Shown here piece after piece: positions 2,453-8,085 of a DNA stretch of 64,000 bases. The notes below the pieces were generated by a model. It had not been told where the DNA came from and did not search any database. It saw nothing but the letters and a program-made list of their open reading frames with translations. Both the position numbers and the translations under genes were made by a program. The DNA is taken from positions 1,178,001 to 1,242,000 of the forward strand of contig NZ_CP018789.1 of assembly GCF_002139855.1 (NCBI RefSeq), written 5' to 3'. This DNA is from Campylobacter porcelli. GTDB lineage: Bacteria > Campylobacterota > Campylobacteria > Campylobacterales > Campylobacteraceae. The stretch's first letter is position 1. The number at the start of each line of letters is the position of its first letter.

Positions 2453-5209
2453 ATGGCTGAATTTTATGATGCGAAAATGGTAGAAGAGAAATTTTATAAA
2501 ATTTGTGAAAATCGTGGATATTTTGAGATAGATGGAAACAAAAATATTCAAGAAGACAATAAAACTTTTTGCATTATGATGCCGCCCCCAAATGTTACTG
2601 GAGTGCTTCATATAGGGCATGCGCTTACCTTTACCTTACAAGATATAATAACAAGATATAAAAGAATGGATGGGTATAAAACTCTATGGCAACCAGGGCT
2701 TGATCACGCTGGAATTGCTACTCAAAATGTGGTTGAAAAACAACTTTTAGCTAGTGGGCTTACAAAAGAGCAAATTGGAAGAGATGAATTCCTTAAAAAA
2801 ACTTGGGAATGGAAGGAAAAAAGCGGTGGCATAATACTCCACCAAATGCGTCGCCTTGGTATAACTCCAGCGTGGAGTAGAGAGCGATTTACTATGGATG
2901 AGGGGCTAAAAAACGCCGTGCGAAAAGCCTTTGTAAATTTATATAATAAGGGCTTGATAGTCCGCGGAAACTATATGGTAAATTGGTGTACTCACGATGG
3001 AGCCTTAAGCGATGTAGAGGTCGAGCATAGGGCAAATAAAGGCAAATTATATCATTTGAGATATTTTTTATGTGAAAATAGTTGTTCAAACCATAGCCAG
3101 ATAGGTGGCGATTGCGAAGCGGATTTGGGGGTTGCGCAGAATTTTGCGAGTGCAGATAGAATAAATAATTCATCAAGCGAGCAAAATTCAAGCTCCGCTA
3201 AAGATGCGAGCAAGCGTCCCTATATCGTGGTGGCTACTACTAGACCTGAAACCTACTTTGGCGATACTGCTGTGATGGTAAATCCAGATGATGAGAGATA
3301 TAAAAGCTTAATTGGTAAAAGCGTAGAGCTACCGCTACTAAATCGTAAAATCAAGATTATTGCTGATAGTCATGTTGATATAAGCTTTGGAACTGGCGTG
3401 GTGAAAGTAACTCCAGCTCACGATACAAACGACTACGAAGTGGGTAAACGGCATAATTTGGAATTTATAACTATCTTTGATGAAAAGGGAATTTTAAACG
3501 AGCATTGTGGGGAATTTCAAGGATTAGAGAGATTAGAAGCTAGAGAAAAAATCATAAATGAGCTAGAAAGCAAGGGCTTTGTAGAAAAAATCGAAGATTA
3601 TGAAAATCAAGTAGGATATTGCTACCGCTGTAAAAATGTAGTTGAGCCATATATAAGTAAGCAGTGGTTTGTAAAAGCCAATATCGCAAAACAAGCCATA
3701 GAAGATGTAAATGATGGCGGAGCTAAATTCTACCCATCGCACTGGATAAATAGCTTTAATGCGTGGATGAGAGAGCTAAAAGATTGGTGTATTAGTCGCC
3801 AACTATGGTGGGGGCATCAAATTCCAGTATTTTACTGCGAGTGCGGATATGAGTGGGCTGATGAGAGTGAAAAATCGCTAAAATGTCCAAAATGTGGTGG
3901 AGTTAAATTCACTCAAGATCCTGATGTGCTTGATACTTGGTTTTCTAGTGGGCTTTGGCCTATTTCTACGCTTGGCTGGGGAAATGGAGATGCGCTGAAA
4001 AATGATAAATGGTTTGATGGCGATTTGAGCGAATTTTACCCAAATACTATGCTAATTACTGGCTTTGATATACTCTTTTTCTGGGTTGCTAGAATGATGT
4101 TTCAGTGCGAAAATGCCACAGAAAAACTACCTTTTAAAGATATTTATCTTCACGCACTTGTAAAGGATAAAGATGGCAAAAAGATGAGTAAATCAAGTGG
4201 AAATGTGATAGACCCACTAGAAAAAATAGATGAATATTCAGCTGATATTTTGCGTTTTACCCTTACTTTACTTTGCGTTGCTGGTCGAGATATAAGGCTA
4301 AGTGAAGAGAAGATGGTGCTAGTAAGGAATTTTACAAACAAGCTTTACAACGCAAGTAAATTCCTAATGCTAAATGCAGATAAATTCCCAGATTTTGATG
4401 AAAATGCTGTGCATTCAGAGCTTGGAAAATACATACTAAGCCGATTTAAAATAGCTACAAATGAGACTAGAAAGGCTCTTGATAGCTATAGATTTAATGA
4501 TGCAGCAGATAGGGTGTATAAATTTTTGTGGGATGAGTTTTGTGATTGGGGAATTGAACTATCAAAAGCTAATAAGAGTGCGATTATCGAGCTTGGCTCT
4601 ATTTTTAAAGAGAGTATGAAGCTATTAAGTCCGTTTATGCCTTTTATAAGCGAGTATTTGTATCACGAGTTAAGTGGCACAAATTTAGAGAATTCTACCT
4701 CCATAATGGTGATGAAATACCCAAAATCTAGCTCAATAGATGAGGAGATCGTAGCTAAATTTGAGCTAATTATCGAAGCCATTATAAGCATTCGCCGTGC
4801 TAAGGCTACAATCGACCAAGGAAATGCTAAAATTTCAAAAGCCTTCATAAGGATAAACAAAAACTTAAATATAAACCAATATCTAAATTTCATCAAACTC
4901 CTAGCCAAATGCGAAGAGATAGAGCTTACAGATGAGATAGTGCCAAACTCAGCTAGAGATGTAAGTAAGAATTTAGAGAGCTTTATCCCGCTTTCAGGAG
5001 TGGATACGACTGCCATCATCGCACGGCTAAATTCGCAAAAAACCAAGCTTGAAAAAGAGATAGCTAAGCTTGAAAATATGCTAAATAATGAAAAATTTGT
5101 AGCAAATGCTCCACAAGCCGTGCTACAAACCAATAAAGATGGTCTAGTAACTGCTAAGGAGAAATTTGAAAAAGTGTGTAGTGAGCTGAGAAATTTTGGA
5201 GAAATATAA
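2453..5209 (+). CDS. valS: Valyl-tRNA synthetase with an extra loop in the editing region
   Basis: Class I aminoacyl-tRNA synthetase charging tRNA-Val. The HIGH motif is at PPPNVTGVLHIGHAL (around residue 50), the KMSKS motif at KKMSKSSGN, followed by the anticodon-binding domain and the C-terminal coiled coil (KTKLEKEIAKLENML) typical of ValRS. At 918 residues it is slightly long for the family. The excess is a Ser/Asn/Ala-rich stretch at about residues 206-255 (bases 3070-3215) between the RYFL strand and VVATTRPET, at the start of the CP1 editing domain. In C. jejuni, as I recall, valS is followed directly by the metN-type ABC gene; here two other genes intervene. Confidence 0.97.
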   Translation: MAEFYDAKMVEEKFYKICENRGYFEIDGNKNIQEDNKTFCIMMPPPNVTGVLHIGHALTFTLQDIITRYKRMDGYKTLWQPGLDHAGIATQNVVEKQLLASGLTKEQIGRDEFLKKTWEWKEKSGGIILHQMRRLGITPAWSRERFTMDEGLKNAVRKAFVNLYNKGLIVRGNYMVNWCTHDGALSDVEVEHRANKGKLYHLRYFLCENSCSNHSQIGGDCEADLGVAQNFASADRINNSSSEQNSSSAKDASKRPYIVVATTRPETYFGDTAVMVNPDDERYKSLIGKSVELPLLNRKIKIIADSHVDISFGTGVVKVTPAHDTNDYEVGKRHNLEFITIFDEKGILNEHCGEFQGLERLEAREKIINELESKGFVEKIEDYENQVGYCYRCKNVVEPYISKQWFVKANIAKQAIEDVNDGGAKFYPSHWINSFNAWMRELKDWCISRQLWWGHQIPVFYCECGYEWADESEKSLKCPKCGGVKFTQDPDVLDTWFSSGLWPISTLGWGNGDALKNDKWFDGDLSEFYPNTMLITGFDILFFWVARMMFQCENATEKLPFKDIYLHALVKDKDGKKMSKSSGNVIDPLEKIDEYSADILRFTLTLLCVAGRDIRLSEEKMVLVRNFTNKLYNASKFLMLNADKFPDFDENAVHSELGKYILSRFKIATNETRKALDSYRFNDAADRVYKFLWDEFCDWGIELSKANKSAIIELGSIFKESMKLLSPFMPFISEYLYHELSGTNLENSTSIMVMKYPKSSSIDEEIVAKFELIIEAIISIRRAKATIDQGNAKISKAFIRINKNLNINQYLNFIKLLAKCEEIELTDEIVPNSARDVSKNLESFIPLSGVDTTAIIARLNSQKTKLEKEIAKLENMLNNEKFVANAPQAVLQTNKDGLVTAKEKFEKVCSELRNFGEI

Positions 5210-5218
5210 GGATAAATA

Positions 5219-6568
5219 ATGAATTTTAAGGTTAAAAATCTAGGACTTTTAAATCAAGCGGAGATAGAAATTGGCGACTTAACCATTCTTTGCGGTGAAA
5301 ATAATAGTGGTAAAACCTATGCTGTTTATGCTTTTTATGGTTTTTGGAGATTATTACCTGAAAATATTAATGAGCTTATTTTAAGGCATAAAGATAGTTT
5401 TATACAAAAAGAAAAAAATATTATCGCTATTGAAGAAACAAAATTTATCCAAATTCACGCAAATCTAAAAAACGAAATGAATAAGCTATACAAAAATAAA
5501 CTTGTAAAAGTTTTAGGAGGCAATGCAGATATTTACAAAGATGCTAAATTTGAATTAAGTTTTGAAATTTTAAATTACGAAAAGATTTTTAAACAGCAAA
5601 ATTCTTTCTTTAATGTTTATAAAGCAGATGAAAATATAATATTTGAATTTTTTGATAGAGATGATTTATCATCTCAAAATATACATTTATTTTTAGTTTA
5701 TCTTATAATAAGCAGATTATTTTATAGACATCAAATAAATATTATTAGTGTAGAACGCACAGGTATTGCTATGTTTTATAGTGAGTTAAATATAAGCAGA
5801 AATAACATCCTAGCAGGTCTAACCCAAAATAATCAAGGAGATATCATCGATAATATAAATAACTATATACAAAAAGCTACCTCTCGCTATCCTTTGCCAA
5901 TTACTGACAATATATCTCTTATAAATGATATATCAAATGTTACTAATCAAAAAAGCTTTATCGCTGAAAGTAAAAATAATGAAATTTTAGATTTGCTTTG
6001 GCAGATAGTTGGCGGAAAATATATAATAAATGATTATGGATTACAATTTGCGACTGGTGCAAAACAAAAAATACTCCAAAAACACAAAACTATAAATATC
6101 CAGCAAACTTCTAGCTCTGTTAAATCTTTATTTTTATTAGATTTATATATTAGATTTCAAGCACAAAAAAATGATATTTTAATTATAGATGAACCAGAAT
6201 TAAACCTGCATCCAAAAAATCAAATTCTACTAGCTAGGCTTTTAGTTATGTTGGTAAATATCGGCATAAAGGTGTTTATCAGCACTCATAGCGATTATAT
6301 TTTGCGTGAGTTTAGTTCATGTATTTGCCTAAAAAATATTAGCGATGAAAATTTGAAAAATTTAGAAGAGTATTCAAAACAAATGCAATTAGACGCTAAT
6401 AAAGTAAGAGCTTATCAAACTATAAAAATTAGAGATGAAATAACTACTGAAAGTGTTAAAATTACTCAAGATGATGGTATTTTTATGAAAACTTTTAATG
6501 AAGTGATAAATATGCAAAACATAGCTCAAGATAAAATTTATGAGCAAATTTTAAAGAGCCGATTATGA
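5219..6568 (+). CDS. OLD/SMC-like AAA ATPase of a two-gene cassette
   Basis: A 449-residue ABC-class ATPase of the OLD/SbcC-like AAA_15/AAA_21 type. The Walker A GENNSGKT is at residues 26-33 after the typical start FKVKNLGLLNQAEIEIGDLTI; the Walker B block LIIDEPELNLHP is at about 321-332; the switch region STHSDYIL follows at about 355. The middle (about 50-300) is a family-specific insert. No TOPRIM domain follows the ATPase core, unlike OLD nucleases. The ATG has an AAGGAT site and sits 9 bases after valS; the stop overlaps the next gene by four bases, so the pair is one unit. Such ATPases coupled to small nuclease-like partners are common in phage-defence systems (Gabija, Septu, PARIS are analogies). 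Defence is an inference. Confidence 0.85.
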   Translation: MNFKVKNLGLLNQAEIEIGDLTILCGENNSGKTYAVYAFYGFWRLLPENINELILRHKDSFIQKEKNIIAIEETKFIQIHANLKNEMNKLYKNKLVKVLGGNADIYKDAKFELSFEILNYEKIFKQQNSFFNVYKADENIIFEFFDRDDLSSQNIHLFLVYLIISRLFYRHQINIISVERTGIAMFYSELNISRNNILAGLTQNNQGDIIDNINNYIQKATSRYPLPITDNISLINDISNVTNQKSFIAESKNNEILDLLWQIVGGKYIINDYGLQFATGAKQKILQKHKTINIQQTSSSVKSLFLLDLYIRFQAQKNDILIIDEPELNLHPKNQILLARLLVMLVNIGIKVFISTHSDYILREFSSCICLKNISDENLKNLEEYSKQMQLDANKVRAYQTIKIRDEITTESVKITQDDGIFMKTFNEVINMQNIAQDKIYEQILKSRL

Positions 6569-7113
6569 AAAAAGAATTACAAAATTTTTATAGTTTTTTA
6601 AGCGATAATTTAAAATGCGGGGATGGGAAATATTATATAATAGAAGAAATAAATAATAAAAGTTATATCAAGAAAGTTAGTATAGAAAAAAATGGAAGTT
6701 TTTTTGTTCTAAAACAAAAAGATCAATTTAAAGCTGAACTATTTAAAGATGCTATTCCATCTTGCGATTTTATAGTAGTTAGTTATGATAAAGTATATTT
6801 TGTAGAGCTAAAATCCACCTCAGGCGATACAATATATAATAATGATGAAAATCCACGTGATAAAGCTTTAAAACAATGCAAAAATAGTCAACTTCTATTC
6901 GATTATTTATATAGTGCTTATAATTTACACAAATCAGCAAATTTAAATTTTGAAAATAAACAATTCATTTATCTATATCCAAAAAGAGCAATCTCTGAAA
7001 AATCTCCAACAAATATGGATACAAAAAATTCTTCCTTAATACCAAAAGAAGTGGAATGTGATAACAATGGTTGTATTGAGTTAGATCTCGATTTTTTCAA
7101 AAAAATAGGTTAA
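6565..7113 (+). CDS. Unrecognised partner of the ATPase with a possible PD-(D/E)XK nuclease core
   Basis: A 182-residue protein translated from an ATG overlapping the ATPase stop (ATGA), which ties the two products together. I do not recognise a named family. A strand-loop-strand stretch CDFIVVSYDKVYFVELKSTSG (Asp68, Glu81-Leu-Lys83) has the spacing and shape of a PD-(D/E)XK nuclease core, and a downstream helix with ALKQCKNSQLLFDYL could supply the extra polar residue often found there. No HNH or TOPRIM motif is visible. Codons are very A/T-rich. The gene ends 3 bases before metN, so the cassette fits tightly between two housekeeping genes. A substrate-binding role without nuclease activity remains possible. 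Confidence 0.6.
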   Translation: MKKELQNFYSFLSDNLKCGDGKYYIIEEINNKSYIKKVSIEKNGSFFVLKQKDQFKAELFKDAIPSCDFIVVSYDKVYFVELKSTSGDTIYNNDENPRDKALKQCKNSQLLFDYLYSAYNLHKSANLNFENKQFIYLYPKRAISEKSPTNMDTKNSSLIPKEVECDNNGCIELDLDFFKKIG

Positions 7114-7116
7114 AAT

Positions 7117-8085
7117 ATGATAAAAATCTCAAATTTAAAAAAATATTATGGCAAAAATCTCATCATAAATAATGTTAGTTGCGAGATAAATAAGGGTGAA
7201 ATATTTGCTATCGTTGGTCACAGTGGTGCTGGTAAAAGCACGCTTTTACGCTGTATAAATGGGCTTGAAAGCTATCAAAATGGCAGTCTAAAAGTGCTAG
7301 GGCGTGAGATAAAATCGTTAAATGAAAATGGATTAAGAGATCTTAGGCGAGATATAGGCATGATATTTCAGCATTTTGCTTTAATGAGTAGAAAAACAGC
7401 TTTTGAAAATATCGCTATGCCTTTGCGTGTGTGGGGCTATGATGAAAAGGCTATAAAAGCCCGTGTTGATGAGCTTTTAGAGCTTGTAGGATTAAAAGAT
7501 AAGGCTAGAAGTTACCCAAGTCAGCTAAGTGGGGGTCAAAAGCAGAGAGTTGCCATTGCTAGGGCTCTAGCACTTAATCCTAAAATCTTACTTAGCGATG
7601 AGGCTACGAGCGCGCTTGATCCAAACACAACAAAGCAAATTTTAAGCCTACTTAAAGAGATAAATGAGAAGCTTGGTATCACAATAGTGCTAGTCACACA
7701 CGAAATGGAGGTGGTAAAAAACATAGCAAATAGAGCTATTTTACTCCAAAGTGGCGTGATAACCAACTTCGGATCAATTGTAGAGCTATTTTTAAATCCA
7801 GATGAAAATATGAAAAACTTCCTTGGAGAAGATGAAATTTTACCAGATACTGGGGTAAATATAAAGATATTTTTCCCACCAAATGTAGCGATGAATAGCA
7901 TTATCACATCTATGGCTAGAAGGCTTGATATTGATTTTAACATAGTTTGGGGCAAATTAGAAAAGCTAGGTGGTAGCGTCCTTGGAAGTCTAGTTATAAA
8001 TGTAAAGCCAAAAGATGAGCTTAGAGTGGAGGAATTTATAAAAAGTCAAGGGGCTTTATATGAAATTTTAAAGGAGAAAAAATGA
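7117..8085 (+). CDS. metN: Methionine ABC transporter ATPase
   Basis: ATP-binding subunit of the D/L-methionine uptake system MetNIQ. Walker [10 protein letters not shown], signature [15 protein letters not shown], Walker [14 protein letters not shown] and the H-loop THEME are all present. The C-terminal 80 or so residues match the position and length of the NIL regulatory domain that binds methionine in MetN. The 322-residue length is normal. The stop overlaps metI by four bases. The ribosome-binding site before the ATG at 7117 is weak, so translation may depend on the upstream gene. Confidence 0.93.

Follow-up and report, generated by a model that had tools for sequence, protein, structure and literature searches.

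The association of OLD-ABC ATPases with PD-(D/E)XK, HNH or PIN nucleases is a recurrent theme in a survey of these proteins (PMC12839542). The closest described system to the locus reported here is PD-T4-4 (Vassallo et al. 2022), in which an OLD-type ATPase of ~450-480 residues is followed directly by a PD-(D/E)XK protein of ~180-210 residues, and which came from a functional selection for defence against T4 (PMC9519451). The same architecture is shared by the 'OLD-ABC ATPase + novel REase' operons and by WonAB (Adams et al. 2025), a Vibrio cholerae system whose resemblance to PD-T4-4 is pointed out in the paper that describes it (PMC12137116). WonAB function requires the ATPase residues of WonA together with WonB K71, and the outcome is abortive: DNA stays intact and translation is inhibited, with rRNA or tRNA as the proposed target (PMC12137116). 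The ATPase modules of Septu, PARIS, Gabija and retrons have a related OLD-type fold and are likewise paired with nucleases.

The window analysed here is a stretch of 64,000 nucleotides from Campylobacter porcelli (NZ_CP018789.1, positions 1,178,001 to 1,242,000), in which two genes, A and B, lie between valS and a metN-type gene (Table 1). We read A-B, with a probability of roughly 0.8, as an anti-phage cassette of two genes that was gained by horizontal transfer and is of the PD-T4-4, or OLD-ABC ATPase plus PD-(D/E)XK nuclease, kind. This reading is based on features seen in these data, namely fold class, conserved catalytic residues, pairing, patchy spread, atypical composition, and defence neighbours elsewhere. 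The two reading frames overlap by four bases (ATGA), and ORF coordinates reproduce exactly the overlap and the spacings of 9 and 3 bases to the flanking genes that a preliminary description had given. At 25.7% and 24.2%, the GC contents of A and B are the lowest two among the 52 ORFs of the window (mean 34.2, sd 3.4). A scan just 5' of A found no promoter-like site exceeding the shuffled background, and A-B are therefore probably read from the valS transcript. Around the window copy of the cassette, no defence island or mobile element was seen.

Table 1. Coordinates and motifs of the cassette between valS and the metN-type gene (nucleotide positions are those of the window; residues are those of each protein).
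Feature	Position	Strand	Detail
A (ORF A), OLD-type ABC ATPase, PD-T4-4_A-like	5219..6568	+	449 aa
B (ORF B), PD-(D/E)XK-type putative nuclease	6565..7113	+	182 aa
valS-A gap	5210..5218	+	9 bases; valS ends at 5209
Gap from B to metN-type gene	7114..7116	+	3 bases; metN-type gene starts at 7117
A, Walker A	residues 26-33		G26-ENNSGKT-33, K32
A, Walker B	residues 320-325		ILIIDE, D324/E325
A, ERTG motif	R180		invariant in homologue alignments
A, SSS signature	residues 298-300
A, H-loop	H357
A, C-terminal extension	residues 396-448		strand-strand-helix, short
B, putative active site	E28, D68, E81, K83, Q104 (plus Y114)

Protein A had been described as an OLD/SMC-like ATPase with Walker A and Walker B motifs at residues 26-33 and 324-325 and without a TOPRIM domain, and its motifs, Pfam matches and AF2 model confirm each of these points. 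Alignments of 11 and of 30 homologues show no variation at K32, R180, D324, E325 or H357, and matches to Pfam AAA_15 (5.5e-24) and AAA_21 (5.2e-13) indicate that these motifs have not arisen by chance. For the AlphaFold (AF2) model (pLDDT 82), the solved folds that Foldseek places nearest are the ATPases of retrons, PtuA of Septu and GajA of Gabija (E 3e-10 to 1e-6). No TOPRIM was found in A, which has only 449 residues and whose model ends in the strand-strand-helix extension. Amongst PADLOC profiles, PD-T4-4_A (PDLC04033) matches A over its full length with an E-value of 4.8e-101 (residues 1-441 on 1-455/460), followed by PDC-M47A (1.8e-82) and a second PD-T4-4_A model (3.6e-61); AriA (3.1e-28) and GajA (6.2e-11) score far below PD-T4-4_A.

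For B, the preliminary description had pointed to a D-x12-ELK core like that of PD-(D/E)XK nucleases, and D68-x12-E81-L82-K83 is indeed found in its sequence. Across 98 homologues, D68 is conserved in 97, K83 in 94 and Q104 in 92, with E or D at position 81 in 97 of them, and with E (88) or D (7) at position 28. The AF2 model (pLDDT 87.8) runs in the order H-EEE-EE-H, in which an N-terminal helix and three strands precede two core strands and a long helix; E81-L-K83 closes the second core strand, and Q104 sits on the long helix. This model fits the predicted PD-(D/E)XK order, and B found no confident match to a non-nuclease family, the outcome that had been named as contradicting the assignment. 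Direct profile matches are weak: Pfam NERD falls slightly short of its cut-off (2.9e-4), PADLOC HEC-02B gives 1.1e-5, and a PHROG Holliday junction resolvase profile gives 1.1e-3. NERD and Holliday junction resolvases are families of PD-(D/E)XK type. Foldseek searches of B returned zero matches at E<=0.001 against either the PDB or BFVD; the list of weaker PDB neighbours is rich in PD-(D/E)XK enzymes (Nt.BspD6I, McrC, Shedu, Hjc, and RecB), which is suggestive only of such a fold. Similarly, tblastn of B against plasmids and phages gave no matches, and phmmer against PDB sequences gave just weak, chance-level matches to unrelated proteins.

A PADLOC search, proposed as a check on the pair, thus placed A with PD-T4-4_A and gave no direct match at E<=1 between window B and the PD-T4-4_B models; PDC-M47B also returned nothing for window B at E<=1, and matched the copy of B in genome G003 weakly (1.1e-3). 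With the PADLOC profiles used, the ATPase half alone was detected in Campylobacter. The assignment of B is strengthened by a chain of homologues that reaches PD-T4-4_B. Relatives in other Campylobacter and in Helicobacter, 31-37% identical to window B, match PD-T4-4_B at 5e-9 to 1e-7 (e.g. L042 at 5.3e-9 and L051 at 9e-9), the E-values of matching relatives overall reaching 5e-6, and a profile of the Campylobacter B set matches a PD-T4-4_B-type profile with 97% probability (E 5.4e-11), with D68, E81 and K83 in register. B is a well-predicted putative nuclease with an obvious active site.

The preliminary description could match the pairing to no system it could name. That judgement is not supported: the pair falls in the group of PD-T4-4 and PADLOC PDC-M47, with WonAB and the 'OLD-ABC ATPase + novel REase' operons as relations. 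As in PD-T4-4, the ATPase comes first in an adjoining and overlapping two-gene operon, B carries the PD-(D/E)XK active site residues, and PD-T4-4_B and window B have E, D, (E/D)xK, Q and Y positions in common. The window pair differs from PD-T4-4 in that A falls in a separate Campylobacterota clade (100/100) and B is missed by the PD-T4-4_B models; window B is only 19-25% identical to the plasmid-borne PD-T4-4/PDC-M47 partners. PDC-M47 is itself a candidate pair in PADLOC. Compared with WonAB, residues K34, R182, E300 and H333 of WonA plausibly correspond to K32, R180, E325 and H357 of A, and WonB K71 to K83 of B, by motif and order rather than by alignment; WonB, at 16.1 kDa, is smaller than window B. 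The nucleases of Septu, PARIS, Gabija and retrons are of HNH or TOPRIM type (with a helicase in addition in Gabija), whereas B is PD-(D/E)XK-like. A-B lacks the TOPRIM-bearing ATPase and UvrD-like helicase partner of Gabija, and in Pfam and PADLOC searches B gave neither a TOPRIM match, as would be expected of the PARIS nuclease AriB, nor an HNH match, as would be expected of Septu PtuB. A-B is a distant, divergent member of the PD-T4-4 family; the kind is a known one, and what is new is this member and the place where it is inserted. We found no report of such a cassette from Campylobacter in the literature searched, and a little-studied but experimentally grounded kind of defence is hereby placed in this genus.

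The pairing of A with B is obligate. A homologue of A was found at 97 loci (80 genome contigs and 17 of 18 viral contigs), and at 89 of these an ORF of 112-230 residues overlaps its stop codon or starts within ~10 bases of it; several of the remaining eight lie close to contig ends. In the E. coli plasmid pairs recovered with A, each of the two genes is of PD-T4-4 type. The overlap of the two genes, and the annotation of AAA_21 as 'putative AbiEii toxin, Type IV TA system', could also suggest a toxin-antitoxin pair maintained for stability rather than phage defence, with B as toxin and A as antitoxin. We consider this improbable: A is a large ATPase conserved together with B, copies of the pair lie within restriction loci, and for WonAB simple sequestration is excluded, as WonB toxicity needs active WonA (PMC12137116).

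The distribution of the cassette is patchy. Of the 153 family genomes, 15 carry a homologue of A, and these come from four of 12 genera; the A-B pair is present in two of 16 congeneric species, at the valS-metN junction in both. The presence of both genes there in nearly all campylobacters with no link to defence, which would have counted against the proposed interpretation, was not observed. In the ATPase tree, the Campylobacterota copies group in a single clade (100/100), and within it those of Campylobacter and Helicobacter are intermixed, the pattern expected under horizontal transfer. Two genomes (G094 and G019) carry stop codons within A, as expected for a dispensable system. Synonymous divergence between G000 and G003 is 0.73-0.76 for A-B and 1.28 for metN; recent transfer of A-B as a reading of the lower value was set aside, since a GC3 of 13-18% in A-B limits the synonymous change that is visible.

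Comparison of the junction itself supports a lineage-specific insertion between valS and metN, as had been proposed. The two genes are adjacent or nearly so in three congeneric genomes (G002, G015 and G011), and adjacent with a short gap in four genomes (L170-L173) of what we take to be the jejuni group, a name that leans partly on GTDB genera; the adjacency that the preliminary description had given for C. jejuni is thereby supported. Some relatives have nothing between the two genes, and others have unrelated genes there, e.g. a DsrE-like gene in G014 and G006, of which G004 has a shorter copy that seems to have shifted. The close in-line packing of A-B and its likely co-transcription would also fit an accessory with a housekeeping role in the valS-metNI operon, acting in transport, repair or tRNA charging. 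Such a role is very improbable given that the cassette is missing in 14 of 16 congeners, that relatives have valS and metN adjacent without it, that its composition is atypical, and that its own relatives lie elsewhere, beside lpxB or restriction genes. A functional tie of A-B to valS through tRNA was ruled out on this last ground.

At several of these other sites, the neighbours are defence genes. In L154 and L157 the cassette is nested between the mod (methylase) and res (restriction) genes of type III RM loci, and L154 also carries a RhuM gene matching the PADLOC candidate PDC-S05 (3.7e-139); in L156 and L159 it adjoins mod-res pairs of type III RM. In L155, L164 and L165 it lies tight against lpxB (named by eye). 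Together with the PADLOC match of A to PD-T4-4_A, these neighbours support the earlier proposal of a defence-type ATPase-nuclease design. The short valS-metN and lpxB junctions appear to be small sites at which defence cassettes insert singly.

The precedents of PD-T4-4, WonAB and the OLD-ABC ATPase-nuclease pairs suggest that A senses and B effects. A would act as sensor and regulator, an OLD-type ABC ATPase dimerizing with ATP at the interface, and B as a nuclease effector that is probably docked on the C-terminal extension of A and inactive at rest. A phage-made trigger would alter the ATPase state of A, the altered A would release or activate B, and active B would cut nucleic acid and so halt the infection. 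The most likely outcome, and the one we favour, would be abortive infection via translation shutdown, with a tRNA or rRNA target, rather than destruction of incoming DNA; for the effector outcome as such, the odds of an RNA target may be put at about even, and direct DNA cleavage appears a tentative second. The same defence pair could instead confer direct immunity, with B cleaving phage DNA and infected cells surviving, a reading that is possible but doubtful. PD-(D/E)XK enzymes are mostly DNases, DNases are among the weak structural neighbours of B, and in the PD screen direct immunity was the outcome for seven of the 11 systems that have DNA-binding or cleavage-like parts (PMC9519451). Against this, the related WonB spares chromosomal DNA and stops translation (PMC12137116), and Septu and PARIS, whose ATPases are related, are reported to cut tRNA. 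It is conceivable, although unlikely, that the Campylobacterota clade is a distinct functional sub-type in which B has its own target (e.g. one tRNA) and trigger, and that the jejuni-group copies between type III mod and res form a second line of defence, set off once restriction is blocked.

Further genes were noted at these insertion sites. In the jejuni group, the lpxB-surE stretch (L155, L156, L157, L164 and L165) holds the cassette and/or type III RM genes, and looks like a recurrent insertion region. In G005 (L022:5367-7700) and G001 (L023:5950-8352), the closest relatives, valS and metN are separated by a tightly spaced gene for a 777-800-residue pentapeptide-repeat protein with membrane-like segments (by eye) and no PADLOC match, which may be another cassette. 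In G007 and G008 (L027 and L028), the same junction encodes a lysine-rich protein of 243-272 residues, whose C-terminal half matches the PADLOC candidate PDC-S69 (2e-37) and HEAT_CxxC_PD-DEXK (1.7e-12); by these matches, the protein is another candidate for defence at this site. The metN match in each of these two genomes (L020 and L021) contains one internal TAA.
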